Shown: one piece after another, positions 6,388 through 64,000 of the stretch | Layout: each line of letters begins with the position of its first letter | Position numbering within the stretch: the first letter of the stretch is position 1 | DNA from: Onchidella celtica | Lineage: Eukaryota; Mollusca; Gastropoda; Systellommatophora; Onchidiidae | Assembly (NCBI GenBank): GCA_963931925.1 | Contig: OZ007569.1 | Location: 17,204,545 to 17,268,544 of the forward strand | Length of the DNA: 64,000 nucleotides | Reading direction: 5' to 3' | Made by a program: the position numbers and the translations under genes | The notes under the pieces: model-generated | What the model saw: the letters and a program-made list of their open reading frames with translations, nothing else | Told to the model about the DNA's origin: nothing | Database searches by the model: none

Positions 6388-6392
6388 GTATG

Positions 6393-7521
6393 TGTCACAA
6401 ATCCCAGACTGGGAGATGTAATAGTTTATGACAGGACAACAATCACGAACAAACATACATTATATTATTGCAATTAACTGCCGTACAACGGCCTTATTCT
6501 CACACACACTCTCCCTCGGATCCACAACCCGGTAGTTACTCTAAAGGCACTTCGGCCTCAGCCTCTCCCCTCAGGGTCTTAATAGCACATTAATAATTCA
6601 CTGGCACCGCAGTCTCTCAATATCACCTTCCTATTGTCATACACCTTAGCATTCCCCTAGCACCTCAGCAGGGCAATAACACATTATCATTTCAATAGAC
6701 ATTATCATTTCATAGTTCACTAGCCCCTCAACATGGCAATAGTACATTATCACATTGACGCTCATATCTACGTCCCTGTCCGTGGCCTGACTGCCACGAC
6801 TTTATGTGCCTCTACTGTCCTGCACTGACAGCCTCACTTCTGGCCTATGGGTGGCCTCCGGCCCTATGCTGGCCTATCCCCTGTGCTCATCGAGGTGGCT
6901 CTGCGGCCCGTCCTCGACACCTACAAGAATAACATTACATTGGTATAATACCCTACCATTTCTATTCACTCCACCTCTCCTTACAATCCATGAAGCGTAC
7001 ACACACTAGTTCACCTTTCACTCACCACACATCTTACGGTAACACACCTCCATCGGAGTACACACTACTCATGAACTCACTTTCATCTATCGCTCATGGC
7101 GCACATTGCTATATCCAATATCAAGGACTTCCACATTCCTCACATATACTTATTTACATCATGGTAATAGACGAATATAATATAATACATCAATCATAAT
7201 AATCAATCAACGTTCTACGTACCAGTTATCACTGGAAACTCTCTCACTGGTCTCTCGACTGCTCCCCTTATGTCCGCCCGATGGGCTCTTACTAGCGTCC
7301 GTTCCGTAGGACCTAACTTGCAGTGATAGTAATACAGCGCTTTCGCCTCATTCAGACCCCCCCCCCCCTACTCACAACAGCACGCTTTAACTTACTTGTC
7401 TACGTGCGTTAATTTTACTCTCTTCCTTTCACGTCTTTCACCACTTGTCTGCCGTGAGCCCTTCTTACTCTACACCCGCTCTGTAGCAATCCCCTTAATT
7501 GCACTCACTCCACTCGTGACA
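6393..7521 (-). repeat. LTR at the element's 3' side
   Basis: This is the left LTR on the plus strand. It starts TGTCACAAATCCCAGACTGG and ends CACTCGTGACA, so both ends have the TG...CA form. It aligns over its whole length with the right LTR and with the solo LTR at 36178-37452. Confidence 0.93.
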
Positions 7522-7541
7522 TCATCTCCCACCCCAAAAAA
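7522..7541 (-). other. Polypurine tract
   Basis: Immediately inside the 3' LTR the minus strand is purine-rich, ending GGGGTGGGAGATGA before the LTR start TGTCACGAG. This is the expected place and composition for the plus-strand DNA primer of an LTR element. Confidence 0.7.
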
Positions 7542-7878
7542 ATTAATGCAATTAATTTCAAATCGCATCAAGATGACTGTCAACGAGTGAGCGTGAGCAA
7601 TACCTACACTAAAAAAAATGACCTAGCAGTTCCCCTAGTATATAAAATACCGAAATCAGGGGAAAATATGGGGATCAGTATGCCCTGCAATATGCATATA
7701 TGTATCACATCATCAATAGCTAACTAAACACAATACCTAATACAGAATCAAAAACCAATCAACCTATCAACCATTCTCCATATTATATTTATAATGTCAA
7801 TATTTTAAAGTCGACTCATTCCCACAGATCCTGTCAATGTTCCTGTCCTCTGATTGTATAAGCTCCTGAACTCTTCCC

Positions 7879-9057
7879 CTAGACTCGACTAAGGTAGTCG
7901 GCGATATGATTGCTGGTTCCTGGAATTGGTTGAATAACGAAGGTATACGGCTGCAAAGCCAATGCCCATCTAGACAAGCGTGGGCTGGACGAACGATTCT
8001 TCGACAAAAATGTCAGTGGCTTGTGGTCTGTCTGGATACAAATTTCTCGTCCCATGAGATAACGTCCTAATTTCTGGACGGACCACACAATGGCAAGACA
8101 CTCACGCTCTATCACAGAATATTTTCTTTCTCTCTGCAATAACTTCCTACTGACATAACATACAGGATGGAGACATTCGTTCTTCTCCTGTAGAAGACAA
8201 GCGCCGACACCAGAGTCCGACGCATCCGTTCTGAGGATAAAATTAGATCGAAAATCGGGTAATATCAGAATGGGTGACGATGATAATGCTGTCACCAAAT
8301 TATCAAATGCTGTCTGACATTCAGACGTCCACTGGACCTTATCGGGTTGTCCCTTCTTAGTAAGGTCAGTAAGAGATGACAAGGAGGAAAAATTTGGAAT
8401 GAACTTTCTGTAATAATTTAAAATTCCCACTAAGCTTCTGACTTGTTTCTTTGTTTTAGGGATTTGCAACCCTACTAATTTGTCAATTTTTGTTACTTCA
8501 GGTCTCTGAACACCTCTACCCACGACATGTCCTAAGAATATTATCTCTGGACATGCCAAATCCATCTTTGCGGGTTTAGCAGTTAACCCAAAATGACGTA
8601 ATCGTTGAAAAATTACTGTTAGTGTCTGAATATGATCAGACCATGTCGACGTATGGCATGCTATATCGTCAAAGAATGACACGACATTAGGTATGTCCTT
8701 CAACACTAGTCTCATTAATCGTGCAAACGTCGCTGGCGCGTTTACCAACCCAAATGGCATGACCTTAAATTGGAATAATCCAATGGGCGTTTGGAACGCC
8801 GTGTATTGTTTAGACTCCTCAGTAAGTGGGATTTCCCAATAACCTTTCGTTAAATCTATCTTGGAAAACCACGTGGACCCGGCCAATGAAGCTATTAATT
8901 CCTCCTGAAACGGAATAGGCTCCCTATCGCCTACCGTAATAGTGTTCAATCTTCGAAAATCAATACAGAACCGCACCGATCCATCAAGTTTTTTCACGAG
9001 GACGATGGGTGATGAATACGGCGATGTTGATGGTTCTATCACATCTAACTTCAACAT
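7879..9057 (-). mobile_element. Gmr1-like element: reverse transcriptase and RNase H part
   Basis: This part has gypsy-type reverse transcriptase landmarks in order: VIEPSTSPYSSPIVLVKK, RFCIDFRRLN, FSKIDLTKGYWEIPL, TPIGLFQFKVMPFGLVNAP and the DD pair in SFFDDIA. The connection region ends in VGILNYYRKFIPNFS. RNase H follows with RTDASDSGVGACL, ERECLAIVWSV and TDHKPLTFL, and the frame ends HIADYLSRV. In most gypsy elements an integrase would follow; here the element ends soon after at the 3' LTR. Confidence 0.93.
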
Positions 9058-9061
9058 TGAC

Positions 9062-10702
9062 TCAACTTCCTTTATGACTATCTCTCGAAGAGAAAGGCAG
9101 CGGATACGGTCTAAGAAATACTGGCTTATCCGAAGTCAACTTTATTTGGTGCTGGATCACCGTAGTGCGACCCGGCAAATCCGTAACAACATCCGGGAAT
9201 GACGCTAACAGGGTCTTAAGTTCCCTACTCCTTGAACTCGTAAGGTCAGGGTTAATTTTTACGTCCCTGTAACCTTGTGTCGGAGTTAACTCCGGCAATT
9301 GAATTTGTAACTCTTCCTGCGCCTCGGTGTCGCTTACGTCACAGTCCAACTGGTCTACGACCCCCGTACAAGCAACAGAGAAGACAGTCTCCTCTGGTCT
9401 TGTCTGTGCACACAGATACTGTGGTCTCTCATAAAATCTCTGTAGCATATTAACATGGAAAACCTTACTCGTTCCATCAATGTAGATAGCGTAATCTACC
9501 TTTGAAACAACTCGCTCAATAACATAAGGGCCTTTCCATGTCATCAATAACTTATTATGGTCCGTAGGTAACAACAATAGGACCTTGTCTCCTGGCTTAA
9601 AAATTCTCAGTTTGGAACCTCTATCTTTATAGTCTTTTGCTCTTTTCGAAGCGATACCAGAAGCTTCTTCTGCTATAGTGCGCGCTGAAGATAGTCTTTC
9701 TCTTAAATCAACAAGGTACTGAAACACCGAAATCTGCTCATCGTCTCCCGATGACGGCGACGTCATCATGTCCCGAAGAACATCAGTTGGGCCCCTAGGA
9801 CTACGACCATACATCATTTCGAACGGCGAGAATCCCGTTGACTCCTGCCGTACCTCTCTGTACGCGAATAACACTGCAGGGATATATCTATCCCAATCTT
9901 TAGGGCGATCAGCAGCTACCTTACGCAGCATCGACTTTAACGTCGAGTTCAATCTCTCGCACATGCCATTAGCCTGCGGATGATAAGGGGTGGTAGTGAT
10001 GGGTTGTATGCTGAATAAGCGGAACAATTCCTTCATCATCTCCGACGTAAATTGCGCGCCCCTATCAGACAGAATTTGCTCTGGTATTCCTACCCTAGCG
10101 AAAATTGCAAACAACGCTTCCGCGACTGCCTCAGACGTTATGGTCCGCAGAGGAATCGCCTCTGGCCATCTCGTAGCATTACATATGACCGTTAAGAAAA
10201 ATCGATTCCCCCTATCGGTCGCTGGGTGAATGGGGCCAACAAGGTCTATCGAGACCTTTTTAAACGGTTCCGAGACCGTGGGGATCTTCTGAAGAGGAGC
10301 CTGGGGTGTACGACCCTTATGCGTCGTCTTTTGGCACGCACTGCACGTCTTACAATAGACTTGCACATCTCTGTGGATCGATGGCCAGTAAAAATTTTTA
10401 AGAACCCTTTCTTTGGTTCTAGCTATCCCCATATGACCCGCTAATGGGACATCATGTGCCAAATGCAATACTGTTGCGATCAGCAACGCTGGCACAACGA
10501 CCTGCTTTAAAATGGAGGCCACCGTTACATACTTACGGAACAGAATGCCCGCCTGAATAACAAAGGAAGACGAGCCGTTCTTATATCTCCTCGTTTTCTC
10601 GGTTCGCGCTTCCCCAAAACATGGGTTTAATGATGGGTCCTCCCTTTGTAATCTCGCCAAGCGCTCTGGCGTGATATCTAGGTTGACCGCTGGCGTCGCC
10701 AA
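9062..10702 (-). mobile_element. Gmr1-like element: integrase part
   Basis: This part has the zinc-binding HHCC region (HDVPLAGHMG then CKTCSACQK) and the DDE core: D in SIDLVGP, D in LSDRGAQFTS and E in NGMCERLN. A GPY-type C-terminal region (WKGPYVIERVVSKVDYAI) follows. The tail runs into the segment that normally leads into gypsy reverse transcriptase. It lies between Gag-protease and reverse transcriptase, which is the copia-like order. Confidence 0.93.
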
Positions 10703-10774
10703 AGGTCTAATCTTATCTTTATCAGCTACCCGTCGACGTGTTTCGACCGCGGCGCAAAAGTCAATACCTTTTGA

Positions 10775-12619
10775 TTACGACCATGCTTGCACGTTCCCAT
10801 CGGAAGGGGAAACTACCCGTGATACATTCCCAATGATGAGCTGGGCGCCTGGAAAACAACCAACGACTGCTTCGACTTCCCCGCTAAGGAAAGGTGTATC
10901 TATCACTATTCTTGCCATGGGTAATTTCTCAATGGCCCCCGAAAATTGGATGCACGGGACAGTCTCACCTGTAAGCTGTGAATCCCGAATGCAGTCTCTA
11001 TGCACTCCCACAACGGTAGATCCTGTATCTCGTAAAACCGAGACCGGTTCGTCCCCAACAAACCCCGGATAAACCCTAAGACCACCTCCTGTATGACATG
11101 AATTTATAACGGGGATCTTTCTCCCACAAGGTAAAACACCGGAAGATAATAACTTCTCACAACTGGGACACTTAGAATACTGTCCGCCTCCGTTGTCCGA
11201 TGTAACACACGCAGCCGCATGATGAAATTTATTTGGGGAACATGGACTGGAGCTACTGTCCACGTTCGCCGCTATCCTACCTGCAGGGCAATTCACGCTG
11301 ATGTGATCTGCTCTACCGCAGTTCCAACACTTCGCGGCCCTACACTCGCGTGAAAAGTGACCCACGCGTCCGCAAGTCCAACACTCCGCTCCCTGTGCTG
11401 CACTAGGCCTGGGTCCCCGTGACCCATCGCGACCGGAACTAGAGTCCCTATGCCGTCGGTCATCGGCAAAGGTCACAAATCGCCCCCGGCCATTACCGCG
11501 ACCTAGCCCTCCTGCTCGGTCAAACTTACCGGGTCCATATGCAGGGGATTGGTGATAGCCCCTACGCTGCCCCTGGGCTTGCCCACTATAGGCACCACGC
11601 TGACGCGACCTGTCCCTAAGTCCTGCCGGCGACCCTTCGACAACGGCGACGTACCCAGCATCTTGGACGTACGCCCTGGCGACTGGTTTGGACGGATGTG
11701 CCGTACGGTATGCTTCCGCCAACTTAGACGCCTCCTGCACCGTCGCGGGTTCGTTTTCTTTCAGGAAGGCCACCAGATCTTTATGGCACGACGCGTACAG
11801 CTGGTCACGGATCATTAGGTCTTTCAGTTTAGCAAAATCCGCGCCCACATGCGCCAAGTCTACCCAGTTCGCGAAATATTCCGTTAGTCTCGCGACGAAG
11901 GCAGCAAAGTCCTCCCTGGTATCCGCACGTGCTCGCCTAAACTGCTCCCGGAAATATTCCTCGGTACGCGCAAATCGGCGAAGCAGCAAAGCCTTCAGCT
12001 TATCGTAATCTTGCACGTCTTCGCGCTGTAGCTCTTTAAAGTAGGTTAACGCTCGCCCCTGCAATAGAGACGCCAGGTACGTGGCCCATAATTCCTTATT
12101 TTCCCCCCATTGCAATTGTGCGTTCAGTTCGAACCTGTAAAGGAAGGCGTCTATGTCGTCCTTCCGGTCGTCGAACGTAGGGAGCTTAATCCTAACGCCA
12201 CCTTTATTGTGTACCTGCCGCTCAACTGTTTCCGCTGGCGTATTCTTCTTGAGTTCTAACTCCGCAATCTTTACTTGCGCCTCTATCTCCTTTAACCTTA
12301 TCTCCTGCTCCCTTTCCTTAGCCTGTCTCTCCTGTTGCTGAGCTTCTAACTCCTTTAACTTAAACTCCCTTTCCTGTTCCTTATCCTTAGCCTCTCTCTC
12401 CTGTTGCTGATGCAACTCCTTTAACTTAAACTCCCTTTCCTCTTCCTTATCCTTAGCCTCTCTTTCCTGTTGCTTATCCTTAGCCTCTTTTTCTCGCTCT
12501 CTATCCTTAGCACGCTCATCGCGCAAATCCGCCTGCTGTTCTTTAATCCAGCCGCGTAGCTCCTCTCCCTCCAGGCCAAGTTCCTTACCCAACTTCATTA
12601 GTTGTTGGAGTTCCGCCAT
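10775..12619 (-). mobile_element. Gmr1-like element: Gag and protease part
   Basis: The first 130 residues are a K/E/Q-rich predicted coiled coil with repeated blocks around REAKDKE and EFKLKEL. Residues 145-310 are capsid-like. Within them about 222-305 match the helical layout and spacing of SCAN domains (YFREQFRRA, LTEYFANWVD, LMIRDQLYASC, LVAFLKENEP, EASKLAEAYR). Two CCHC knuckles follow at about 413-426 and 431-444. An aspartic protease motif, DTGST, sits near 531. The Gag would package element RNA and the protease would process it. Confidence 0.92.
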
Positions 12620-13562
12620 TTCACAGATTTATGGTTATGGTATGTATACTATGAAAACGGCTACCCTGTCGGTATGATCACTAACGACACGACCAGAGAC
12701 CTGAGATCACACCAGATATACAATACCCAATTGCCTCAAATACAATTCAGAAATTTACGTACTTCCTAACTAATTCTATATTTATAAGATGTATTGCCCT
12801 ATTAATAATAAAAAAGAGTAGAAAAGACAAGAATAAGGAAATTCAGTAGAAAGACCACAAGTACGTCAAGGACAACGAACCAGACTAGGACAAAGCTTCT
12901 ACAAAAAAAACTATAATGGAGAAAAAAAAAATGCAACCTACTACGCCGATTACACTACAAGCTACGAACAAGAACAGAGTCTGAAAAAAAAGAACGTATC
13001 TACAGATAGGTAGAAAGAGGGACAAGAGAATACGTCTTCCTGCGAAACAGAGAAGATATCGACGCTACAACTAAACAAAAATACAGGTCCCTATAGAACT
13101 GTTCACTGTGATGAACGAAGTTCCAAATTTAGCCCACCTCCCGAAGAGGATAAACTACGCTCACCACAGCAAACCCGCGCCACCGCCCGTATAATCGATT
13201 ACGACAACAAGAACAGCAAAAACAGGGAAAAAGACAGAAGAAAAGACAGCCCTCAATCCAGGGTACAAAATTTTCACTCAACTTTCAGCCTTATGAGTTT
13301 AAGTCCTCCCCTTAATCGGAGCTCTGGCTGCTTGTCTCCTCAGGCTGCACGCACACACACTGTCTCTCTGAAAGTTTAAGTACACATTAGTACATATTTA
13401 TGGCAATACATGCATCAATACATATTCATAAATATACATAAATCATATCATCATGAAATTTCCATTCATCCCACGAACAAGGACAACAGCACGAATTCCT
13501 AGCACAACAGAAAACAACTAGATATAACGAATACACAATGTCAAAATGACCACAGGTAAACA
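12620..13562 (-). mobile_element. Untranslated leader of the Gmr1-like element
   Basis: This A-rich stretch lies between the primer site and the Gag start. No domain is visible. It is taken as the leader that would carry packaging signals, by position only. Confidence 0.6.
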
Positions 13563-13575
13563 GGACGAGCCCCCA
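13563..13575 (-). other. Primer binding site, proline tRNA type
   Basis: On the plus strand GGACGAGCCCCCA equals the last 13 bases of typical animal proline tRNA including CCA. It lies one base inside the 5' LTR. The minus-strand reading TGGGGGCTCGTCC is the same as the start of the primer site of murine leukaemia-type retroviruses. A proline tRNA primer is therefore likely. Confidence 0.8.
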
Positions 13576-13576
13576 G

Positions 13577-14776
13577 TGTCACAAATCCCAGACTGGGAGA
13601 TGTAATAGTTTATGACAGGACAACAATCACGAACAAACAAGTTTAACACTTAACAGAACAATCCATCAGACTCACACATTTATTAAACATAATTATACAG
13701 ATAATAGCGCAATTACATACATTATATTATTGCAATTAACTGCCGTAAAACGGCCTTATTCTCACACACACTCTCCCTCGGGTCCACAACCCGGTAGTTA
13801 CTCCTAAAGGCACTTCGGCCTCAGCCTCTCCCCTCAGGGTCTTAATAGCACATTAATAATTCACTGGCACCGCAGTCTCTCAATATCACCTTCCTATTGT
13901 CATACACCTTAGCATTCCCCTAGCACCTCAGCAGGGCAATAACACATTATCATTTCAATAGACATTATCATTTCAATAGTACATTATCACATTCACGCTC
14001 ATATCTACGTCCCTGTCCGTGGCCTGACTGCCACGACTTTATGTGCCTCTACTGTCCTGCACTGACAGCCTCACTTCTGGCCTATGGGTGGCCTCCGGCC
14101 CTATGCTGGCCTATCCCCTGTGCTCATCGAGGTGGCTCTGCGGCCCGTCCTCGACACCTACAAGAATAACATTACATTGGTATAATACCCTACCATTTCT
14201 ATTCACTCCACCTCTCCTTACAACCCATGAAGCGTACACACACTAGTTCACCTTTCACTCACCACACATCTTACGGTAACACACCTCCATCGGAGTACAC
14301 ACTACTCACTCGCGCTACAAATCCATGAACTCACTTTCATCTATCGCTCATGGCGCACATTGCTATATCCAATATCAAGGACTTCCACATTCCTCACATA
14401 TACTTATTTACATCATGGTAATAGACGAATATAATATAATACATCAATCATAATAATCAATCAACGTTCTACGTACCAGTCATCACTGGAAACTCTCTCA
14501 CTGGTCTCTCGACTGCTCCCCTTATGTCCGCCCGATGGGCTCTTACTAGCGTCCGTTCCGTAGGACCTTCTAACTTGCAGTGATAGTAATACAGCGCTTT
14601 CGCCTCATTCAGACCCCCCCCCCTACTCACAACAGCACGCTTTAACTTACTTGTCTACGTGCGTTAATTTTACTCTCTTCCTTTCACGTCTTTCCCCACT
14701 TGTCTGCCGTGAGCCCTTCTTACTCTACACCCGCTCTGTAGCAATCCCCTTAATTGCACTCACTCCACTCGTGACA
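13577..14776 (-). repeat. LTR at the element's 5' side
   Basis: This is the partner of the left LTR, with the same TG...CA ends and slightly longer. It is followed by the GTATG target duplication. A short repeated segment around CATTATCATTTCAATAG corresponds to the region that forms a 38-bp tandem array in the solo LTR. Confidence 0.93.
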
Positions 14777-14781
14777 GTATG

Positions 14782-29800: not shown

Positions 29801-32800
29801 AAAACACAGAGCAAGAGAGGACGTGTTGAGCTAGTTTAGCCTGTGCACTTACATTATTTGACCTCTGTGATAGTGATTTGAGCTGCCTCTCTTGAAACTG
29901 GCATTTTTCAAACCTCCTATCGTTAAACCGAAACTCTGTCTAAACTGAAAACAAACCCGTGGTCCCGCCAATTTTGGTTTAACCGTTGTCTACTGTATAA
30001 GGGTCAATTCAAAAAATGTATGTGTTCTCTAATAATGCTTTTGTGTGGGATAAATGATGAACACTTTAATACAAAATAAAAACTTCAGACACACTGATCA
30101 CTAAAGCTATAAAATTTTCTAACTGCACCATTTAAAATTTCATCATAATACTCAAGAGAACACTAACAATCAATTCAAAAATAGGTATTCTCCAATAATG
30201 CTTGTGGGATAAATGACTAACACTTTCATACATAATGTAAACTTCAGATATACTGATAAAATAAGACTGAAGATTTCACTGTATTGAAGAAACATGCCTG
30301 CGACATTTAGGACAATATTTTCTTACCTTTCCAGTAATCCCTTCTTCTTTCATTTTCATTATGTCTTCTTTAGACATCTTTTGATTACTGTCTGAGTCAT
30401 GTAGGTTTCTGTTATCAGCCCCTTGCTGTACAGCTGAATTTTAAAAAAAGATAAATCACAAAGTATATCCCAGAACTATAACTGCTGAAGAAAATGTCCT
30501 CATCATAATTTTTGTACATACTTCTTTTCACACTCGCCTCTGTCATATCTCAGTCAGTGTGATGGATAGGGGCATTAATTTGCAACATCATGTTCAAATC
30601 TAAATGTGCAACTTTCATTGACAAATCTGATGGCACCTCATTATTCATAAGCTTACATCCCTTCCACCATCACCCATTAGATTTGCACTTTATCATACAG
30701 TTTATGCATTTTATTTGTCATACAATTAATCTGAAAGGGGAATAAGACAATCGTGGCACCAGGCGAGATGGTAATAAATTATATTACACCAAAATGCGCA
30801 AGTCTGATCTATTAATGTTCCACTTATTAAGCGACTTTCCAGTCTTGTAAGATAGTAACCTTCCGTAACAAGATTAAATTTTCCTTCACTGACAAGAAGA
30901 AACCTTCTTATGTCTTCCACACCGAAAAAGAAAAAGACACCATTTATTGTTCATGTTCAAGGCACTTCTCTAACATGTTTTTCCACTTGTTTTCTGGATC
31001 ACACTTAGCAGGTCTCATTCCTTTTGTCAGAAGGTGAAAAAGGAATGCTTTGAAACTGACCTACAGATGCTACTGATTACACGCCTTTCAATGTTTTATA
31101 TAAACTTACTGTGCCAGTACATTTCTGTTGAGATGAACAGAGACACTTTATGACCATTGCGTGCAGAAAAAAGAAATTTCCTACAGTTCACGATTTTAAA
31201 TCTCACAGTCAAATATAAAGAAGAAAAAATCCAAAATTAAACATACTGATCTCATCTATCTGTAGTTGACCACCTTTGTCCCCACTAACTTTCATCAGCT
31301 TGCCACGGTCAAGCTCAAAGGTTGATCCATATGGCTCTCCTATAAGTTCATCCACATTAAATTTGTTTTTTTCAAAGTACACCTGTCTGGGAATGAAATA
31401 AAGAGAAATTATTACAAGGTAACGACTTCAAGTTAAATGTTTAAAACATTAATCAGTGCCATCACCTCTGAAGTCTAATACCACATGTCTGACAGTATTA
31501 GTATTACCTGTCTTTCTTCATGGGATAAAGGGCTAAACAATATCCAGTTCTTCATTTGCATTTGTGTACCCACTGTTATTAACATGTAGGATCCAATAAA
31601 TTAGCATTTTATCGGGAACTCTTCATTTGTGGTATTAGTATTACCTGTCTTTCTTCATGGGATAAAGGGCTACAAACAATATTCAGTTCTTCATTTGCGT
31701 TTGTGTAGCCACTGTTATTAACATGTCACCTCACCTGTCACCTGTCGGCTTCATCGTCATCGATGTTAGCTGCTACAGTGGATGTCACGACAAAATCTCC
31801 TCCACCCAATCCTGTCCTTAGCTTTCCTAGTTAGTTCACTTATTTCCAGCTGGCTGACTTTCTTGATGTTATCGTGATATGTAATGGGTGGTCTTCCTTG
31901 TTTTCTCTTTGTTTCTGTCTTTCCTTGAAGGATTGATATCATAAGGGCCGTGCTTTTGTTTCGGGCCGCGTGGCCGATGTATGCAAGTCTTCTTTTATTT
32001 ATTTCAGGTGTTATTCTTCTGGTGGTGCCAAGCTGTTCTAAGATGCTTGTATTTGTTCTCCTTTCTGTCCAACTTATTCTGAGTAGCCTTCTGTAAAACC
32101 ACATTTCAGCTGCCTCCAATCTTGTTATGTCTGCCTTTTTGAGTGTCCAGGCTTCACAACCATATAGTAGGACTGGCCAGATCAAGCACTTAAGTATGTT
32201 CACTTCGAGGTCCATTGGTGTGCCTCTATCCTTCCAAATGTTGTTTAGTTGAACCATTTTGTGTTTTGCCATTCCTATCCTTGTTTTTATGTCCTTTGAG
32301 CAGCTTCCATCTTGCGATTTATGTGATCCTAGGTATTTGAAATCAGTCACTTTTTCTAGTGCTGTTTTGTTTACTAGTATCTCCTGGTGTTCATGGTGCC
32401 CTGTTCCAGTATGCATGACTTTCGTTTTCTTAGCATTTAGGTGTAGGCCTGCTGTCTTGCCCGCTTCATCCACTCTGTGCAACACTCTTTTCATGCTGGT
32501 GATGTTATCTGACATAAGAGCTGTGTCATCAGCGTAGCGAAGGTTTGTGATGTTTCGGCCTCCGATCTTTATTCCCATATCTTCTATGTCTGCGTTTCTC
32601 ATGATCTGCTCAGTATAAATATTGAAAAGATGAGGTGAAAGTATGCAACCCTGTCTGACTCCTTTCTCGATGTTGAAATATGGACAGTTCTCATTGTTCC
32701 ATCTAATCGTTGCCTTTTGTTCGTGGTATAGTGCAGCGATGAGGGTCACATGGTGTTTCGGGAATCCCATCTTAATCATTATATTGTACAGGTGATGGTG

Positions 32801-34509
32801 CCTAACGCTGTCGAACGCTTTGCTGTAGTCTATGAACGTGATGAAGGCTTCGTTTCCATTGCTTCTTATCTGTTCAATCATTATTTGTAGTATGAAGAGC
32901 ATGTCAGCGGATTCAATAAATTGGCATTTTTCCAGTAACTCTTTATTTGTGATATAACCTTACTAATTTGAAAGTAATGTTTTACTATCTTTGGTGAAAC
33001 TGCAGCTTTTCCTTAAAACTATGAGGTATGTATCAATTTTTAAGTATAATTAATTATTCATTGCGATTAAAAACAACCATTTAAATGCACAAACTGCTAC
33101 ACTGAACAGATGTTAGCTACATGAGTGGGTGGGCAGCATTTTCAGCCTTTGCCTCTCTAAAGAGAGGAATGAAAATCCAGTAAAAGTAACTTTTAAAACA
33201 TCAAAATATATCTAAATTAAAATTCTGAAAACATGCACTGAATCCAGTTCTAGATCCAGATAATTTCGCAGAAATATTATGATGTGGGACCTTGCCAATC
33301 CAAATCGTGAATTGATTGATATAAATAATTCAATGACCAAACTTGCCACAGAGTACCGGGAGATCAAGTAAACTCTACAAGAGTGAATTAGAAACTACTT
33401 CAAAATACTTTTAATGCTTCAGTATTCATTAAATCTAGAGTTAGATCCAAGAAGCCTTATATTATAACATTGTCCTTCTCATCAAGCCAGTTCCATCTGA
33501 ACTTATTCTTCACACCATCTTTGATTTTCATAAGTTCCCAGTTACTATATATCTGACATATGCCATGGTATATAAATGCAATATATTATTATGGTGAAAG
33601 ACCTAGACTAATTGATAATTCTGACACTACAATTACAAAGTCTGGGATGTTAGGCCCAATATAGCAAAGTGTCGATACGAAATTCAAAGACCAAAAAAAA
33701 AAGCAGTTTGGGCAGCACCTATCTAATGGTGTTTTGCTCGTCAGGCTCATGCCCTCTCACAAGTCACATGTGGTCAAATCATCATTTCCAGCAATTGCAA
33801 TTTAGGCATCTTATCTGTGACATTAAAATTGTTTTACTCAGTGTCAGAAATCCACCAGAGCTCTTGATGGTTAGAATCTCGGATAGGAAAACTAATTCAC
33901 TGGCAAATCATTGGAATTCCAACAAACCTGTTACAAAACTTACAGGTATAACAATGGGAAGAACCGCTGCCATCTCGATGCTTTGGCTGATTCGATACCA
34001 GTCGATGGCACAACGCAGAGGTTTACAGATCCCCACAAGGACACAACTTTAAGAGCGGCCATGCATGGGGGCTGAGACTCCCTGGCCAGTTAGTCTTCCA
34101 TAGGATGTTGTTTTTTTAGAGTAAACGCACGGCTCAGGGATTTCCTGCTGAGAACAGATAGCCTCGATTCAACCAGTATCACATCAGCCAAACCATCAAG
34201 AATGCGGACAAAAGCAGGAGGACCACCAAATCCATCAAGTGCCTCTGAATGTACTTAATCTGACTTTCAAGAATAAGAGAAATTGCAACCCCCTCATATA
34301 CAAACGAGGGGAAGGCCTACGAGTTGATAACTAGCATAGGTAGAAGTCTAGTCGGAGCATGCCGAAGTTTTCACGTGGTCTTATTGCTTAATTCACGGGG
34401 TATGAAACTATCAATTGACCTACCTTTTCCTACGGATCTGAAAGACTCTTGAAGAACCATCTCGTCTAAAAATGACTTGGTCTCCCTCTTGTATCAAATT
34501 TGTTGTCAT
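17885..34509 (-). CDS. TRMT6: tRNA (adenine-N1)-methyltransferase non-catalytic subunit TRM6
   Basis: Twelve exons join in frame to 486 residues, close to human TRMT6 (497): 34509-34424, 31386-31247, 30433-30327, 28968-28877, 27924-27844, 26761-26637, 26073-26022, 24846-24453, 22917-22829, 22316-22214, 19576-19490 and 17989-17885. Every junction has GT/AG ends and keeps phase. Recognisable blocks are IQEGDQVIFRRDG, ADNRNLHDSDSNQKMS, ELIGELIENSETFKTKTEF, LRPDTLSQLLCYSN, ETCQGLVLACIMQRMGG, DYFGFPKEHLDNLYSFPLDK, DPAPILMKMLEFLLPSRPVV and MSGTGGYLLTF near the end. TRMT6 pairs with the catalytic TRMT61A to make m1A at position 58 of tRNAs in the nucleus. It has the methyltransferase-like fold without a working cofactor site. 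Exon 8 encodes a long Ser/Thr/Glu-rich linker (about residues 250-360) that is poorly conserved, as in vertebrates. The last intron ends in AAAG rather than CAG. Introns hold many mobile elements. Confidence 0.95.
18121..18480. repeat. Dispersed repeat, TRMT6 intron 11, copy 1
   Basis: It contains three degenerate tandem versions of a block around CCAGGACATACGAGTAGGAA (near 18170, 18235 and 18300), each with TCCTCTTTA nearby. A longer unit with ATGGGCAATGACATC and GGTCCATTAGACCCATGATG follows. The latter part matches 21546-21760. Confidence 0.65.
19737..20199. mobile_element. Foldback element with long inverted ends
   Basis: The left end, TATATTTAGGCCGAATACGG, is mirrored at the right end (CCGTATTCGGCCCAAATATA). 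A second inner pair, around CTATTTGGGCCGA, extends the palindrome. The interior has two direct copies of ATGCGGTGGTAATTGACGCT (near 19992 and 20027). It also has a core, GGTCTAGTCAGTTTGTATC (from about 19892), that recurs in the foldback element at 53434-53990. It lies in TRMT6 intron 10. Confidence 0.7.
20355..21159 (+). mobile_element. PIF/Harbinger-like non-autonomous element nested in the TTAA element
   Basis: The terminal inverted repeats start AGGGCCTATTCCACGCACAG and continue through TTTTTCCGGACAGG, over 30 bp nearly perfect. The flanking 3-bp duplication is TAA (20352-20354 and 21160-21162). A 3-bp TWA target and GGGCC-type ends are PIF/Harbinger traits. Next to each end are repeated CTGCAGT blocks, a plausible set of transposase binding sites. 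The interior keeps a remnant frame at 20544-20741. Confidence 0.82.
20544..20741 (+). pseudogene. Remnant N-terminus resembling a Harbinger nuclease
   Basis: The frame reads MADSQILDLLAIYVVLNKRK, then KKRRPRKIWSKDC. This resembles the N-terminus of HARBI1-like nucleases, where a hydrophobic ALLL-type stretch, acidic or basic low-complexity residues and an RRxWW block open the protein. No catalytic DDE region follows, and the frame ends after 65 residues. The element therefore looks like an internally deleted derivative of an autonomous copy. The match is by pattern only. Confidence 0.4.
21546..21760. repeat. Dispersed repeat, TRMT6 intron 10, copy 2
   Basis: It matches 18290-18500 in the same orientation. 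Shared landmarks are CCAGGACATAC, ATGGGCAATGACATC, TTGAGGAATA and GGATCCATTAGATCCATGAT. It starts right after the TTAA element, so that element inserted at the edge of a repeat copy. Confidence 0.65.
23126..23948. mobile_element. TA-flanked pogo-like MITE, family A
   Basis: The ends are CAGTAAAACCTCGTTATACC and a near-perfect reverse complement, each bordered by TA. The motif GGCGGTATAACG and variants recur at both ends and inside. CAGT ends, a TA target and the AACCTCGTTATA pattern are typical of pogo/Tigger-derived elements. It lies in TRMT6 intron 8. Confidence 0.82.
24280..24410. repeat. Dispersed repeat, copy 1
   Basis: Landmarks such as AAGCAAAATGTTTT, GCAGAAAAATG and GGAATTTGGTCTTTCACCT are shared in order with 40336-40475. 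The copies are diverged and lie in TRMT6 intron 8 and NAA80 intron 1. Confidence 0.6.
27007..27563. mobile_element. TA-flanked pogo-like MITE, family B
   Basis: The ends are CAGTAGTCTCCGTCTAAGAA and the mirrored TTCTTAGGCGGAGACTACTG, bordered by TA on both sides. The motif TAAGAACCCGC or TTAGAACCCG occurs about six times, mostly near the ends. It lies in TRMT6 intron 5. Confidence 0.82.
29176..29995 (+). mobile_element. TA-flanked pogo-like MITE, family C, copy 1
   Basis: It starts CAGTGAAGAACAGTTAAAC and ends mirrored as GGTTTAACCGTTGTCTACTG, with TA on both sides. It is an 820-bp copy of the same family as 41358-42176, in opposite orientation. Shared interior includes ATGTATGACATCAGAGAGAC (with one difference). 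It lies in TRMT6 intron 3. Confidence 0.85.
30002..30270. repeat. Local tandem duplication
   Basis: The block around AATTCAAAAAATG...CTAATAATGCTT...GGGATAAATGA...AACTTCAGA appears at about 30006-30110 and again at about 30172-30265, with small indels. It begins just beyond the MITE at 29176-29995. Confidence 0.7.
31495..31726. repeat. 137-bp tandem duplication, second copy split by a LINE
   Basis: The unit starting GTATTAGTATTACCTGTCTT occurs at 31495 and 31632. The second copy stops at 31726, and its remaining part resumes at about 32905 (TTCAATAAATTGGCATTTTT). The gap is exactly the LINE at 31727-32899. Confidence 0.85.
31727..32899 (-). mobile_element. 5'-truncated LINE insertion in TRMT6 intron 1
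   Basis: The insertion is flanked by CATGT on both sides (31722-31726 and 32900-32904), a likely target duplication. Its 3' end is at the left and terminates in short repeats around AGGTGACAGGTGAGGTG. The 5' end is cut inside the reverse transcriptase domain, as usual for LINE copies. The uninterrupted tandem duplication next door shows what the empty site looked like. Confidence 0.85.
31766..32902 (-). CDS. LINE reverse transcriptase, C-terminal 378 residues
   Basis: The frame is open and carries reverse transcriptase motifs in order: A as FIDYSKAFD (about 23-31), B as GVRQGCILSP (81-90), and C as YADD (123-126). The thumb-like block FKYLGS and the C-terminal WPVLLYGCEAWTLKK region follow. 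The endonuclease and the first reverse transcriptase blocks are absent, so the copy cannot move by itself. Its first ATG is supplied by the reverse complement of the CATGT target site rather than by the element. The family is RTE/jockey-like and differs from the LINE at 45425-48662. Confidence 0.88.
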   Translation of the reverse strand: MLFILQIMIEQIRSNGNEAFITFIDYSKAFDSVRHHHLYNIMIKMGFPKHHVTLIAALYHEQKATIRWNNENCPYFNIEKGVRQGCILSPHLFNIYTEQIMRNADIEDMGIKIGGRNITNLRYADDTALMSDNITSMKRVLHRVDEAGKTAGLHLNAKKTKVMHTGTGHHEHQEILVNKTALEKVTDFKYLGSHKSQDGSCSKDIKTRIGMAKHKMVQLNNIWKDRGTPMDLEVNILKCLIWPVLLYGCEAWTLKKADITRLEAAEMWFYRRLLRISWTERRTNTSILEQLGTTRRITPEINKRRLAYIGHAARNKSTALMISILQGKTETKRKQGRPPITYHDNIKKVSQLEISELTRKAKDRIGWRRFCRDIHCSS

Positions 34510-44400: not shown

Positions 44401-47400
44401 AGCTATACTGTTAGACCTTGTTTCACTTAGTGGCTCGTGCGGCAAGATAGAAGGCTTGCATAGTTCTGCTGGCAAATTGCCTCCCTCATCCCTCTTCACC
44501 ATACCCACTACCATGCCAGTATTATTACATACGTATTTAATTAATAAAACAACCACACATCACTGCCCATACCCATAGGTCTAAAATAATAGTAACAGTA
44601 ACAATGAAAAACATAGGCTACTAAGTACCATTCTACTCAAATTTAGAAAAATATACACAAAAATTGAATACAAGCAAAAATCCTGACCAAAAAGACAGTA
44701 TTTACGCTAAGGGCAGTTTTCTATGAAATCGTGAAAAAAGACAGTGGCAGCAGCAAGAAAATTATAAGGCTGCATCAATAAATCTTTAATACATGTATAA
44801 CCTTCTTCAGCAGAAGAGTAGACATCCTTTAGCAAACACAAAAGTTCAGTACCGGTAATATGACATTGTATACAAGTTGAGTAGGAAACACATTTTATGC
44901 AATATTAATCAGATTTCACAGAATACAAATCTGGGCAGCTGTTGTTCGGGGACCGTAGTATTTTTACATGGTAAGCTCCAGCTGAAAAGTGAAAACAACC
45001 CAGTACATGTACCAGTATTTTCTCTACACAGCTTTGTGATTAGAGATTACGTTCCCCTAACTACAGCCATGTGGGAAATAAGTCGTAAGAGTTCGTTTGC
45101 GTTTGACAAGTCCAGAGAAAGCATGTCAACACAATAATGGTCATATAATGCTAGGGAGAAGCAAGACCCTACAAAAAATATAACAGAACAATAGGACCGT
45201 AGAGTCTACTTCTGAGAAGCACCCATCAACAACCCATAATCATAAATTTTATGTAATTGCATGCATAATTAATTACATGTAGTAGTAGCCTATAGGGAAT
45301 GCAGATTACCCCCCCCCCTTCTTTTTTTCTACACACACATGCTGGCACATGCAAGCAGGCTTCTCTGCATATCGGTGTAACATTTGCTCACATATTATGC
45401 CAAGGCATACAGCAAAATCACGCCCGTGCAGATGCGGGGCCCTCTTGCAGAAGAGGGACAGCAAAGAATACATCTGACGTGATACTGCGTGTCGCAAGAG
45501 GCGACTAAAGGTGCAAAGGTCCTGGTCTCCCGAGAAGAGCCAGTTGGCGGTGGGCCAACTACCCACCCTGTAAAAATAAACCAGTTACAGAAACACAAGC
45601 AAATACTTTAAATCAGTCTTTTATTTTGGGAGAAGGGGGAGCATCTGCACCTGTAGATTCAATGAAGGACAATGGACAAAGCCGAAAGGACTCCACTGGC
45701 CCGACTGCTCCTTCATCAAACAAGTCACTCCGGATTGCGTCGTGGAATGTCCGCTCCATGTATGAAGCAGGAAAGAGTGCCCAGGTTACAATGGAGATGA
45801 GGCGATACAGACTGCACATACTTGGAGTTAGCGAGACCCGCTGGATACAGTCCGGACTGAAACAACTTAATTCTGGGGAAAAGATTTTGTATTCTGGAAG
45901 GGAGGACAAAAAGCATACAGAAGGGGTAGCGATCATCTTGAGCAAGCACGCCCAGAGGTCACTGAGGGGATGGGAACCCTACGGAAGGAGAATTATATTG
46001 GCATCATTTACTACAAAGAACAAGAACATCAACATGAACATTGTGCAGATATACGCCCCAACAAATGAAGCAACCGATGAGGACAAGGACGATTTCTACA
46101 ACCAGCTTCAGGAAATAGTTGACACATTGCCAAGAAAAGATGTGAACATTATAATGGGAGACGCCAATGCCAAGATAGGACAGGACAATACAGGGTATGA
46201 GGACATTATGGGGCGCAATGGTTTGGGACAAATGAATGAGAATGGAGAGCGGTTTGCAAGTTTCTGCGCATTTAACAGCTATGTGATTGGAGGTTCAGTA
46301 TTCCCACACAAGAGGATCCATAAGGCCACTTGGATTTCACCGGATGGAGTAACTGAAAACCAGATTGACCACTTTTGCATCACCCGACGATTCAGACGCT
46401 CACTGGAGGATGTCATAGTACAGAGAGGAGCTGATGTTCGATCTGACCATCACATGCTGCTGGCAAGACTCAAACTCCGCCTCAAGAAACAAGGTACCAG
46501 AGCAAGAACAAAGAGGAGAAAGTTTCAAGTGAGCCTTCTGGATGGAGACAAGAAGGAAGAGTTCCAGCTGACACTGAGGAATAGATTCAAACCCCTTGTT
46601 GACCTCGAAGAGACAGTAGATTTGGAGACTCACTGGGCTAAGGTAAAAGGAGTATTTACATCGACATGTCAGGATGTTCTTGGGGAAAAGAAAGTGGAAC
46701 ACAAGGAATGGATCAGTCAAAAATCACTGGACTTGATAAGGATAAGAAGAGACCTAAAAGAACAGGTAAATGCAAGTCGTACAAGAAGCTCAAGAGTTGG
46801 TAACCAGGAAGAGTACCGAGCATCAGCTAAAGAGGTCAAAAAATCAATTAAAAAAGACAAAGAGGAGTTCATAGGAATGTTAGCAGAGAAAGCAGAGAAG
46901 GCAGCAACAGGAGGACACACGAGGATCCTCTACCAGACTACAAAGACTCTTGCTGGAAAATATGGAAAACCGGAAGTTCCTGTCAAGGATTGCAACAGGA
47001 AGGCTATTTTTGGAAAGGAAGCTCAGGCAAAAAGATGGATAGAACATTTTAGTAGCCTCTTGAACAGACCTCCACCAAGCAACCCACCCGACATTCTACC
47101 CGCAAGAAATGATTTACCGATCAGTTGCGACCCTCCGACTAAAGCAGAGATTAATGATGCCATAAAGCAGTTAAATCGAGGCAAGGCAGCTGGACCAGAC
47201 CAGATCCCACCAGAGGCGCTGAAGGCAGATGCTGCTGGGGCTGCAGAGGATCTGCACTCACTATTCTCGAGGATTTGGATCGGAGGCAAGTTTCCAAAGG
47301 ACTGGAAGGAAGGACACCTCGTGAAGCTTCCAAAAAAAGGGGACCTCAGCAATTGTAGTAACTACAGAGGAATCACACTTCTCTCCATCCCAGGAAAGGT

Positions 47401-50400
47401 TTTCAATCGGATTATTCTCAAGCGAATACAGAATGCAACAGACCCAAAACTTCGTGAGGAGCAAGCTGGTTTCAGGAGTAATCGATCAACCACCGACCAG
47501 ATCGCCACGCTGAGAATTATAGTAGAGCAGTCGCTAGAGTGGAACTCCCAACTGATAGTGAACTTCCTTGACTACGAGAAGGCCTTTGATAGCATCGATA
47601 GAGAAACGCTGTGGAGAATATTGAGACATTATGGAATCCCAGAGAAGATGGTGAATCTTATCAAGAGCATGTATGAGGGGACAAGTTGCAGAGTCATACA
47701 CGATGGTGAGCTTACTGACAGCTTTGATATCAAGACTGGTGTTAGGCAGGGTTGTTTGCTGTCCCCATTTCTGTTTATTCTGGTGATTGATTGGCTTATG
47801 AAAGAAACCACCAATGGAGGAAGAAATGGCATACAATGGACCCCATGGACACAGCTGGACGATCTAGATTTTGCAGATGACTTGGCACTATTGTCGCACA
47901 CACACGACCAGATGCAAGCAAAGACTACAGCTCTAAACAAAATTTCAGAATCTATTGGATTGAGGATACATCCTGCGAAGTCGAAGGTCCTAAAAATTGT
48001 GGCACCCCCAAGCGAACAAGTCAAAGTAGGAGATCAACCACTGGAAGATGTAGAGTCCTTCTGCTATCTTGGTAGTATCATTGACAATAAGGGAGGAACA
48101 GAGGCAGAAGTCAAAGCACGAATTGGAAAGGCACAGGCAGCTTTCACGTCCTTAAGCAAGATTTGGAGAACCAAGGATATATCTCTAAAAACAAAGCTGA
48201 GGATATTCAACTCGAACGTGAAGTCAGTCCTGTTGTATGGATGTGAGACTTGGAATGCGTCCCAGGCCTGCATAAAGAGAATCCAAGTTTTCATCAACAG
48301 ATGTTTGAGGAAGCTACTTAAGATCAGATGGACAGACAAGGTCAGCAATGAAATTGTTTGGAAAAGAACAAGACAGAGCCCAGTCAGAGAGGAAATTGGT
48401 AGGAGGCGATGGAGATGGATCGGCCACACTCTCAGGAGGCCAGGAAACAGCATCGCGAAGAAGGTATTGGATTGGAATCCCCAGGGCAAGAGATCAAGAG
48501 GAAGGCCGCGCGGAACGTGGAGAAGAGCCAGAGAAAATGATGTGCAACGAAGCGGAAAGACTTGGAATAATGTAAAGAGGCTGGCCCATGATAGAGAGGG
48601 ATGGAAAGTGTTTGTTGGTGGCCTATACCCTGATCCAGGGTGAGAAAGGCATTGATGATGATACAGCAAAATCACCAATTACCCCTGTAAAAACACAGTA
48701 CACTTCAAATTTCAAATTGTCGGAGAATCTATACCCCACTAAAATGGACAAGCTTGTTAAGTTTCATTCTTCTAGAGCTCTGGCCTAGCAAGCTCATCCT
48801 CTGGTGGTGTAGCTTCACAGCCTTCAAGAGTCTCATTCGCAGATAGAAAGACACAATTTTCCTGACTAGTTGGCTGACATGGTTTTCTTCAACCATAATT
48901 TCATGATCGAAGAAGTGGTCTTTTAAAGTGGGGAACAAATCAAAAAGCTTGTCCCTTAGGTGGACCTGGACAAGGGTTTGCATCCGCAGATCAACATGCG
49001 ACGTTGATAGGAGACTGGCCATGAAGTGGGGAGAGGGCACCAGAAGCCTGAATGCCTTCTCTGTTGTGATTAACACCTGAATTACACCCTCAGAGGGGAT
49101 ATAGAGACGGCCACTGTTCTGTTGATGCAGAAATGCAAATCTGTCATCTATGATGGTATCACTCGGTGAAAAGAGTGCTTCTCTGCATTCTAGGCAATCA
49201 GTTCCTTTCTCCAAGTGTCTGCATATGAAGCCTGCAATGTAGGCAATACAAGAGTACCTCCAGTCTGAATCCTGCATAAGGGATGAGTCGAGTCTGGAAG
49301 CAACTTCAGCAAACTCTATATATGCAGACTGAACATCATTTGATCTGCGGGAGCTTGGGACCAACTGCACCTCTTGTGTTGAATCAAGGACAGTAGTATC
49401 AGGGTGACCTGATGATCTGATTTCATTCATCAGAGTCTTCAGTGCTGCTCTGAACTGCTCATAAGTTGGATTGTTGTTCCAGTCATTCATTTGTCTGATC
49501 TAAAACAGTTGAAAGAAATAATACTGTTTATTTGTACAAAATAAATATGAACCAGTAGATTACTAATACATGTACAAGAACTGTTATGGGAAACAATATC
49601 TCAAATTTACTTACCACTCACACTCCCCATTCCCCTGTTAACACAAAGATGCTAAAATGTTAACCCTCACCCTGCGAAGGGCTTACAAATACAGCATTGA
49701 CTTTCCATGCATTCACTCTGCACGGGCGTACAAATACGGCAAGGTCAATCTGACCGCGCAGCGCGCAAGCCGTATTTTCATGCGTCAGGTCACTGTCCTC
49801 TTTGAGATGTAACTACTGTCTTATTATTCACTGTATTTCTTCTAAATCAAAGGCATTGTGTCAAGGACATGTTAACCAGTGAACCACTGGTCGGAATCAC
49901 AAAGACTTAAGCTTTCAAAAGCTCTCCCTGCACTATCAAAAGGTGTAACATCGACATGCGCACTTTTGCTCAACAAATTTGCAATATTATCTCATTTTCT
50001 CACAAGCTGACCATCATCTAGAGTTGTCTGTATCTAAGAACCAATCAGAAACAACCTCTGAAATGATCTTTGCCCCAAATGCCCACATTGGTTTATTAAC
50101 TAGTATGTGTCAATTTGGATGAAACCATTTGTTTAGGACTTGGAGGGCGTGGCTACTTATCATGCTTCGTTCTCACGAAAACTGCAGCTGTCAGTTTGGT
50201 ATCATAAGTCAGATCATTGGTTAGAGACTGACAGACAAAGGTTTTGATGGTTAATTCATTATCAAGCGTGATAAGGCATAGTAGCGAATGTTTTCATACC
50301 GATCACATACAAACTGAACCACATGGACAGCAATAATGTGGTCATAGCACATCGGCAAGGGTCAGTGCGAGCCAGATAAGATTCTCCGTGAATAAGGTCA

Positions 50401-61728: not shown

Positions 61729-62115
61729 TCAAGACAATGTGTGATCCTTGCTTGTGTGTTCGTGTTCAAGTCGTAAAAGTTCCTGCTCCAACTCAAACAA
61801 ATGCTGGTCTTCTGCCTCCGGTGCAATCTGTCTCAAAGCAGCTGCTAAATTAAATATGTAGTCTTTGTTTCTGCCACTTGGTCCTTCTGAATGAAAGATC
61901 TGTGTGGCCATTTCCTCCACTGGTGCGGGACCCAAGAAAAAAGGGTTGTCCTCTGTCCCAATGTAAAGAGTCAACTGAAAGGGCTCTTCATTTTCATGTG
62001 GGAAAAAGGTAACTTCTGTCTGCTTGTAGCCCCCTTTTTCTCTGTAGTCCAGATGGTCTCTCACTGCTGTGATCTGTGAGGCTTCAATTTTATATGCAAC
62101 ACCCCATACTTGATC
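61729..62115 (-). CDS. CHAC2: Glutathione-specific gamma-glutamylcyclotransferase 2, last exon
   Basis: The exon starts after the acceptor GTTACAG and reads DQVWGVAYKI, then YREKGGYKQTEV, TLYIGTEDNPFFLGPAPVEE, QIFHSEGPSGRNKDYIFNLA and EDQHLFELEQELLRLE to a stop. This matches human CHAC2 from about residue 57 to the end. REKGGY carries the glutamate that corresponds to catalytic E83. The enzyme breaks cytosolic glutathione into 5-oxoproline and cysteinyl-glycine. The N-terminal third, with the YGSLIW phosphate-loop-like motif, was not found between 62116 and 64000, so at least one upstream exon should lie beyond the right edge. The paralogue CHAC1 is a less likely alternative; the short C-terminus and sequence fit CHAC2. 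Confidence 0.9.
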   Translation of the reverse strand, partial: DQVWGVAYKIEASQITAVRDHLDYREKGGYKQTEVTFFPHENEEPFQLTLYIGTEDNPFFLGPAPVEEMATQIFHSEGPSGRNKDYIFNLAAALRQIAPEAEDQHLFELEQELLRLEHEHTSKDHTLS

Positions 62116-64000
62116 CTGTAACGAAGACAAATAAACCTACAATAGGTTGGATTTTATTTGTACAATCAAAACAACTAACCAAGACACCAAATTTGCCCTT
62201 AATGAGCTGGAGTAATCCAACACAATGCCAACAATTTCACTTTATTTTTTTCTGGGGGGGGGGGGGTCAGCCGTTTTCACATAAATTGAATAGACTTGTC
62301 GGCACTGGCAAGTAACTTTCTAATAATCACATAGTATCACAAGATCACGCTGAAATAGATTGGGCTGGCCAGACTGGACAGGTATCACGGTGAAACTCAT
62401 AAGGTCCTCTCTATCTGTGCTGAAAGTGTTTCAAAAACACCAAATGAGGTTTTTACAAAGACTGAGGTGGTATTTTCACATACATTTTCAGCACTGAAAG
62501 TGGGCAAGATATTTTAAATACAAGTAAGCTATCACATATTATGCGCACATTTACGGTATTTATTTTTTACTCTTCTGTAAGGCATCAAACTTCAAGCTTT
62601 TCAGGCACCACAAAAAATTTTTTCTCAGGAGTTAAATGAAAAAGAGTATATTTGATACTGTAATTGTGATGTGAAATTGCATCACCTTGCTCTTCCCAAA
62701 TTCTGTTAGAGCACTTGAATTCACAAACTCCAGTAATCATTTTTCTTTAAACCTTATTACAGGATCGGAAAAATGTTTATTTTAGCCTGACTTACTCGAT
62801 TGCACAGATGGTCTAGTGACCATTCAAAACTGATACAAAATTCTTATGAAAAACTTGATAGTGTGGCTTTTTCTTTTTTCTTACCAAGATAATCATGTCA
62901 TCTGCACCCACGCCAGCCTATATGGCCTTTAATCAAGCCTGCCGACTTTAAATTTTGCACAAAAATAAAAAAACAGTTTCGACTAATCGCTCTTGCCATC
63001 AAATACATGTTCTCTTTTTCTTTTTTGACAACTGAAGCCTTTGAAATTATTGGAAACATCTAATCTAATCTATTATAAAAACTCGTGGGATTTTTAACAG
63101 GACCTCTGGCTCGGATTTGCATAAAATTTTACCTGTGCCTTCCTTTTGACCTGCAGAGGGTTGGTTCTTTTTAGATTTGAAACGGTGGGGAAGTTCTGTT
63201 GCTGTTTTTTTTTTTTGAGTTTGCTTTATGTTGTTAATTTTGCCTGCTATTCTCCTTTTCACGTAAACATGAGCCCGTGATGTCATCACTTCCTTCTGCT
63301 TGACCATCCACACTGAGTCAACACACTTTGGTGAACACATATCAAGCTTACTTTCTTTCATTCGCTACAGAACAGAACACACCAAAGGAGATACTTAAAC
63401 AAACTAACTACCCAGTGTGCAGATTACCGCCATTTCATGACAAACTTTGCCTCAAATGCTGACGGAGTGCATAGAGCATTAATGCGCATGGGGAATGCAT
63501 TAAAGACTTATCTAAAAGCAAACAAACAATGATGAAATAAACCTAAAAGAACGTGCAAACTGAAGCATATTGGTAATAATCACCCAGAATTGAAACTAAT
63601 AACAGTTTATTCTGGGCAGTACCGGAACCACAGCTCATTTCCCATAAATTCTATAATTGAACAATAATTTATGAACCAAACTGCACCTTGTTTGAGTGAT
63701 TCATTTAATGGCTAATTTACATTTTGTCAGATTAGGCAGTATTGCAGATATATATAATATACATATATATTTTTATTAAGAAAATATGCTCATCCACAGC
63801 TCTAAGGATAATCTGTAAAAAGTACAATATTAAGTATCACTCAGCAGTTTCTGAATGAACAAATGGTTACAGCAGGTGCAATGGCAAAGAAGCCTGTAAT
63901 TTAATTTTCTTAATGGATTTTTTTGTCTTTTAGTATTTCCTGACTGGTCAAAGTACGAAATATTCTCAAACAAAACTTTGAACCTGCAAATCCTCATTGA
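62116..64000. other. Intron of CHAC2, no other gene recognised
   Basis: AT-rich DNA with a poly-G run near 62254-62268. The open frame at 63065-63361 (minus) has no recognisable domain and no clear splice context. Confidence 0.45.

Follow-up and report, generated by a model that had tools for sequence, protein, structure and literature searches.

The 64,000-nt stretch of the gastropod Onchidella celtica analysed here (contig OZ007569.1, positions 17,204,545 to 17,268,544; hereafter the window) carries on its minus strand, at 6393–14776, a long terminal repeat (LTR) retrotransposon of complete length. We conclude with high confidence that it is a defective member of a Ty3/gypsy LTR family present in many copies and having a Gmr1-like pol order, in which Gag-protease is followed by integrase and then by reverse transcriptase (RT)–RNase H. 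On the element strand, the Gag-protease frame (open at 12628–10778) precedes the integrase frame (10774–9065), which precedes the RT–RNase H frame (9135–7882). Pfam assigned SCAN (7.7e-8) and zf-CCHC to the first frame, Integrase_H2C2 and rve to the second, and RVT_1 and RT_RNaseH to the third. The frames and their domains bear out the order given in the first-pass annotation, and RVT_1, H2C2 and rve agree with its description of the proteins as gypsy-type.

The hallmarks of an LTR retrotransposon were all present: LTR ends of the form TG..CA, a short target-site duplication, a tRNA primer site and a polypurine tract (Table 1). The outer LTR ends fall exactly on 6393 and 14776 and are flanked by perfect GTATG duplications, as had been claimed. 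A single base separates the 5' LTR from the primer site, whose 13 nt complement the final 13 nt of a host tRNA-Pro. ARAGORN was run on three loci matching a tRNA-Pro pattern and identified the tRNA at one of them (L043), finding no tRNA-Pro at the other two. The integrase contains the triad D177, D237 and E273, with 35 residues separating D237 from E273, and at residue 413 the sequence WKGPY, which we take to be a GPY/F-like motif. The third frame contains FFDD, presumably the RT box, together with TDAS, ERECL, TDHKP and IADYL, which we assume to be RNase H motifs. The ~360 nt between RT and the 3' LTR hold no frame of 100 codons or more on the element strand, and thus no sign of an envelope-like gene. 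An Rfam scan of the window gave no match at the gathering score. Elsewhere in the genome, a bantam microRNA match (55.9 bits, under its cut-off of 61; E 4.1e-8) is consistent with a protostome host. On the mitochondrial contig, cox3 lies on one strand and is followed on the opposite strand by a Proton_antipo_M gene, which we read as nad2, and by cox1, apparently the arrangement of heterobranch gastropods; ARAGORN reported no tRNAs at this locus (L045).

The fetched copies of the family share the integrase-first order

The genome search covered 1.14 Gb in 43 contigs. It returned 17,163 RT candidates, of which 100 were scored and proved 96–100% identical to the window RT. In all 20 other copies that were fetched, integrase precedes RT, and in 19 a gag match lies ahead of both (L023 has none). 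In one copy, L011, a further RT stretch precedes the integrase on the far side of LTR pieces; we read this stretch as a neighbouring copy. L027 and L028 encode Gag, integrase and RT in a single frame, of 1569 and 1555 codons, respectively, and in 38 of the 100 scored rows, counted by eye, the RT lies within an open frame of 1,500 codons or more.

Pattern counts over the genome, allowing up to two mismatches in 32 (reversed-pattern controls gave 0 each), placed the undeleted integrase stretch at 2,215 sites, a deletion junction (junction A, described below) at 745 and the LTR at 11,658. As twice the internal count amounts to 5,920 against 11,658 LTR sites, many LTRs are probably solo or derived from other deleted forms. 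Different 5-bp duplications were found in 13 of 21 loci, the window included. Seven loci (L011, L013, L018, L022, L023, L024 and L028) have no clean element duplication, being truncated, nested, tandem or reaching beyond the sequence retrieved; at L020, the duplication is that of a solo LTR. A comparison of the flanks of 14 loci, with up to 250 nt per side, revealed a single alike pair, L009 with L020, neither of which is core-deleted.

The window copy itself is defective, with a stop before integrase and a frame break before RT. Its protease and integrase frames share one phase and are separated by one TAA; RT is read in a phase other than that of integrase. The earlier description of the coding parts as 'mostly open' holds in that the frames are largely open, with the exception of the TAA and the break. 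In no fewer than nine of the fetched copies (L009, L010, L014, L016, L017, L018, L022, L027 and L028), a single frame continues from Gag into integrase, so the TAA of the window is not common to them; in L016 this frame runs across its integrase deletion. The two LTRs are similar, as previously noted: of 1101 compared columns, 6 are mismatched (0.54%), and there are 6 gaps, the largest of 78 nt; a seventh gap in the alignment lies two bases outside the LTR and was not counted. In the other usable LTR pairs the number of mismatches ranges from 0 to 5, L015 showing the highest rate (5/869), and the pairs of L014 and L027 have neither mismatches nor gaps. The window pair is thus at the older end of the fetched copies. 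A 'fairly recent insertion', as first proposed, is a fair description of a copy that, although young, carries defects and has younger counterparts in the fetched set.

Short indels near the RT start vary among L009–L024. These 16 copies were picked from the 100 scored RT rows for matching the window's out-of-frame RT start (first 14 residues), so the clustering of indels is at least partly a sampling artefact. A programmed frameshift at the integrase–RT boundary was considered and rejected, because many copies are open there in one frame (for example L027 and L028) and the short indels differ from copy to copy.

Several copies showed unusual arrangements at their ends. Just inside the 5' LTR, L009, L010, L012, L025, L026 and L028 carry two or three head-to-tail copies of the primer-binding site; the repeat unit of 23 nt includes the LTR end, and one repeat in L012 is altered. 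The window copy, L011, L016, L018 and L022 have only one such site. Faulty primer removal or strand transfer may possibly have produced the repeats, and a literature search on duplicated primer sites found no paper with all of its terms. In L028, the 3' LTR runs on into another primer site and leader. On one contig (C1), internal sites are evenly spaced by 7,063 bases (for example 1664578, 1671641, 1678704) or 7,123 bases (for example 2371275, 2378398, 2385521), which reflects either tandem arrays sharing LTRs or an effect of the assembly.

Relationships of RT, integrase and Gag

Among solved structures, the nearest relative of both the window RT (2.7e-75) and the window integrase (1.3e-28) is Ty3. 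We compared the family with 12 further in-genome loci, fetched from the match lists for H2C2, SCAN, Ty3-RT and Retrotrans_gag and therefore not a random sample. Integrase precedes RT at six of them (L029, L030, L031, L033, L039 and L040); L029 and L030 are near-copies, so these six loci represent about five families. RT precedes integrase at L035, L036, L037, L038 and L041. The remaining locus, L032, shows Gag and then integrase but lacks an RT within range; its integrase is close to that of L039. A scan of contigs from bacterial and archaeal genomes added nine relatives, of which L046–L049 are integrase-first, L050–L053 are RT-first and L054 is a fragment. RT-first order was accordingly seen in nine comparison loci and in Ty3. 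A scan of viral contigs gave 51 pattern matches, none of them a relative, and a search of the genome for SH3_Tf2-1 gave no match at E 1e-6.

The contigs of L046–L054 are presumably eukaryotic contaminants or misbinned. That of L046 comes from a metagenome-assembled genome (MAG) titled Candidatus Thiodubiliella, which we take to be a mussel symbiont; L052 and L053, in records not marked as MAGs, hold elements with the same match figures.

Phylogenetic trees of RT placed the integrase-first elements together. With 15 rows, the nine integrase-first rows lay on one side of a branch from the other six (97/97); with 21 rows, the twelve integrase-first rows formed one group (88/93, not starred), and the window RT stood with them, apart from the nine RT-first rows including Ty3. 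This bears on the placement check proposed in the first-pass annotation, in a tree that has no Gmr1 row. The 21-row trees drop the near-copies L010 and L053; L032 was placed in the integrase trees only, L035 was too short for them and L054 was not used.

The Gag proteins followed the same division. SCAN matched 10 of 11 integrase-first Gag pieces (those of the window, L030, L031, L032, L033, L039, L040, L046, L047 and L048), and eight of these matches exceeded the cut-off of 27, the lower ones being L040 (25.9 bits) and L046 (20.9). The single miss, L049, lies on a contig that starts ~50 residues before the zinc knuckle and probably lacks the capsid part. Among RT-first Gags, SCAN matched none of eight at E 0.1; these matched DUF7041, PNMA, Retrotrans_gag or nothing. 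The scan covered Gags other than those of L029 and L053. On the features that can be decided from the sequence, namely integrase upstream of RT, gypsy-type RT and integrase, and a SCAN-like Gag, membership of the Gmr1-like group is supported, though short of proof. The Gag in particular argues for it because, among frog elements, a SCAN-like Gag is reported from more than half of those of the Gmr type and from none of the other groups (PMC4131045).

Several observations weigh against this interpretation. The Gag of L040 scores higher with Retrotrans_gag (29.3) than with SCAN. The integrase of the retrovirus PFV matches that of the window at 4.2e-26, nearly equal to the match of Ty3. The window copy is unable to make a whole polyprotein. 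A few copies whose two LTRs are identical suggest recent movement, which stops short of present-day activity. The trees contain neither a reference Gmr1 row nor copia. In the 15-row integrase tree, one integrase-first group received only 56/11, and the 21-row integrase tree, which includes the long branches Ty3, L041, L052 and L051, splits the integrase-first rows into two groups (100/99 and 94/98). Such a split would be expected if the integrase-first order had arisen more than once, the window family and the L039/L047–L049 lineage were not one clade, and 'Gmr1-like' denoted a grade. We consider this unlikely, because the RT tree unites the integrase-first rows, a single integrase group was not rejected by the approximately unbiased (AU) test (p-AU 0.44), and a SCAN-like capsid occurs in the Gags of both groups.

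The order also matches that of Ty1/copia, which could point to a hybrid in which a gypsy RT recombined with a copia integrase. The window integrase, nearest to Ty3, matched chain 7z0h_W, which we take to be Ty1 integrase, at only 1.5e-7. RT and integrase groupings are broadly alike, with local differences such as an L046/L031 pair in the integrase tree only. No copia-type RT (presumably Pfam family RVT_2) was matched, as Pfam reported only RVT_1 and RNase H families on the window RT. A hybrid origin is therefore very improbable. An ordinary RT-first gypsy element rearranged in the window copy, or nested or adjacent fragments mimicking the order, might be suspected from a copy split over three frames by a stop and a frame break, and has practically no likelihood given the same order in every fetched copy, the single-frame copies L027 and L028, which refute it, and the exact LTR ends with matching duplications; rearrangement of a single copy, named beforehand as an outcome counting against the original claim, was not seen.

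A lineage without the integrase core

The integrase core is absent from 7 of the 20 fetched copies (L012, L016, L019, L023, L024, L025 and L026), a proportion that is no estimate of frequency as the sample was chosen by RT. Four copies (L012, L019, L025 and L026) share junction A, with a loss of ~530 nt. Junction B, with a loss of 528 nt, is that of L016, and the junctions of L023 and L024 are different again. Junctions A and B both lie within the same imperfect direct repeat. This location indicates copying across repeats, not splicing, and an intron in place of the deletion was therefore rejected. Over the genome, junction A accounts for 745 of 2,960 countable sites, about a quarter.

Junction A removes all three acidic residues, and junction B removes the second acidic residue and the glutamate. 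The element duplications are all distinct (GATTG, TACAG, GTACA and GCCTA in the junction A copies, GCAGC in the junction B copy), from which it follows that these five copies integrated separately. As the catalytic residues were lost and yet separate integrations occurred with ordinary 5-bp duplications, the integrase was most likely supplied by complete copies, and the core-deleted copies probably obtained it in trans. A literature search on trans-mobilised integrase-less elements found no paper with all of its terms. The junction A copies differ in their 5' leader, which is of one kind in L012, L025 and L026 and of another in L019, suggesting recombination between packaged RNAs.

By established LTR-retrotransposon biology, transcription of the family would be driven by the LTR, and reverse transcription, primed by tRNA-Pro, would take place in Gag particles; the polyprotein would be cut by its own protease and the product inserted by its own integrase. 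Core-deleted members would most likely have moved using the integrase of complete copies, and the window copy, being defective, could now move only by that route. It is conceivable, though we put this forward tentatively and with some doubt, that integrase-first gypsy elements radiated in this gastropod and carry parasites of their own. These would be a lineage, making up about a quarter of countable copies, in which the catalytic core of integrase was lost between two imperfect direct repeats and which spread on borrowed integrase. The position of integrase between protease and RT, not at the end of Pol, may make loss of the core and its regain in mosaics easier than in RT-first elements, so that such parasites would be recurrent.

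Features of the window

Table 1. Coordinates of the integrase-first element and its flanking duplications in the window.
Feature	Position	Strand	Basis
Target-site duplication GTATG	6388..6392	.	Sequence reading
3' LTR, 1129 nt	6393..7521	-	LTR comparison
Polypurine tract, adjoining 3' LTR	7522..7542	-	Closely similar sequence here in 14/20 other copies
RT–RNase H frame, 418 codons	7882..9135	-	RVT_1, RT_RNaseH
Integrase/RT frame overlap, site of frame break in window copy	9062..9135	-	Open reading frame (ORF) phases
Integrase frame, 570 codons	9065..10774	-	Integrase_H2C2, rve
Approximate stretch absent from integrase-core-deleted copies elsewhere, present in window copy	9709..10236	-	Copy comparison
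In-frame TAA separating protease and integrase	10775..10777	-	ORF list
Gag-protease frame, counted from first ATG	10778..12619	-	ORF list, Pfam
Protease DTGS motif	11018..11029	-	Sequence reading
Two zinc knuckles (zf-CCHC)	11282..11383	-	Pfam
SCAN-like capsid region	11696..11959	-	PF02023, 32.5 bits, cut-off 27
5' leader, primer site to Gag	12620..13562	-	ORF list
Primer-binding site, TGGGGGCTCGTCC on element strand	13563..13575	-	tRNA-Pro complementarity
5' LTR, 1200 nt	13577..14776	-	LTR comparison
Target-site duplication GTATG	14777..14781	.	Sequence reading

Elsewhere in the window, four further features were recognised by eye. A 1,044-codon open frame at 45509–48643 (plus strand) resembles a non-LTR retrotransposon with endonuclease and RT, and a 397-codon frame at 31766–32959 (minus strand) resembles a non-LTR RT. 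Frames at 48729–52568 (minus strand) resemble a THAP-domain DNA transposase. The frame at 61729–62136 (minus strand) resembles a gamma-glutamylcyclotransferase (CHAC-like) exon and is probably part of a host gene.

Discussion

Gmr1 is an element of the Atlantic cod, and the group of Gmr1-like elements was reportedly defined by Goodwin and Poulter in 2002; Cigr-1, which is relevant below, is an element of Ciona. The integrase-first order is already known, including from Gmr1-like elements of other animals, and the new detail is the large core-deleted side-lineage. Gmr1-like gypsy elements have been described with integrase upstream of RT (PMC3587641, PMC6238403, PMC8220671) and reported in fish, tunicates, frogs, crustaceans and an annelid (PMC3587641, PMC8220671, PMC4131045). 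The crustacean and fish elements include GyRex4, Gychoro2, GyMaja1 and GyLiva4, and Saugg1 of sea bream (PMC3587641); the elements of the tunicate Ciona are counted with Gmr1 (PMC8220671). Their occurrence in protostomes is thus not new, given the crustacean elements and one from a tubeworm (PMC3587641, PMC8220671), and five gypsy clades named as occurring in several phyla include Gmr1 (PMC8556966). A further literature search, on integrase upstream of RT, found no paper with all of its terms.

In molluscs, a survey of gypsy elements (MolGy1–16) has Cigr-1 in its Table 1 and no clade named Gmr1 there; in its text the name Gmr1 occurs once, in the background (PMC6238403). A literature search combining Gmr1, gastropod and retrotransposon found only this survey. 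As the gypsy tree of this survey was built on RT/RNase H and its section 6 lists no Gmr1 clade (PMC6238403), the window family could be inside a surveyed clade with its domain order unremarked. What the present analysis adds is a high-copy integrase-first family in a gastropod genome, where section 6 of the main mollusc survey lists no clade named Gmr1.

Vertebrate SCAN domains have been proposed to derive from a Gmr1-like Gag (PMC3424704). The tie between SCAN-like Gag and integrase-first order found here (10/11 against 0/8) fits this view and extends the pairing to a protostome. The 745 deletion sites beside 2,215 undeleted ones also offer a natural case in which to measure how far LTR elements spread on the integrase of another copy.

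Compared with known systems, the nearest solved RT and integrase, those of Ty3 of Saccharomyces, stand in the opposite order, with RT (612–1008 of 7q5b) before integrase (1088–1350 of 7q5b). The Gmr1-related LGF3 of the tubeworm Lamellibrachia luymesi is reported with <25 elements (PMC8220671), whereas the window family occupies thousands of sites. MolGy1–16 and Cigr-1 are, like the window family, mollusc gypsy elements (PMC6238403). Gmr1-like elements are likened to the family by their described features, namely the integrase-first gypsy order and the SCAN-like Gag reported for frog Gmr elements.

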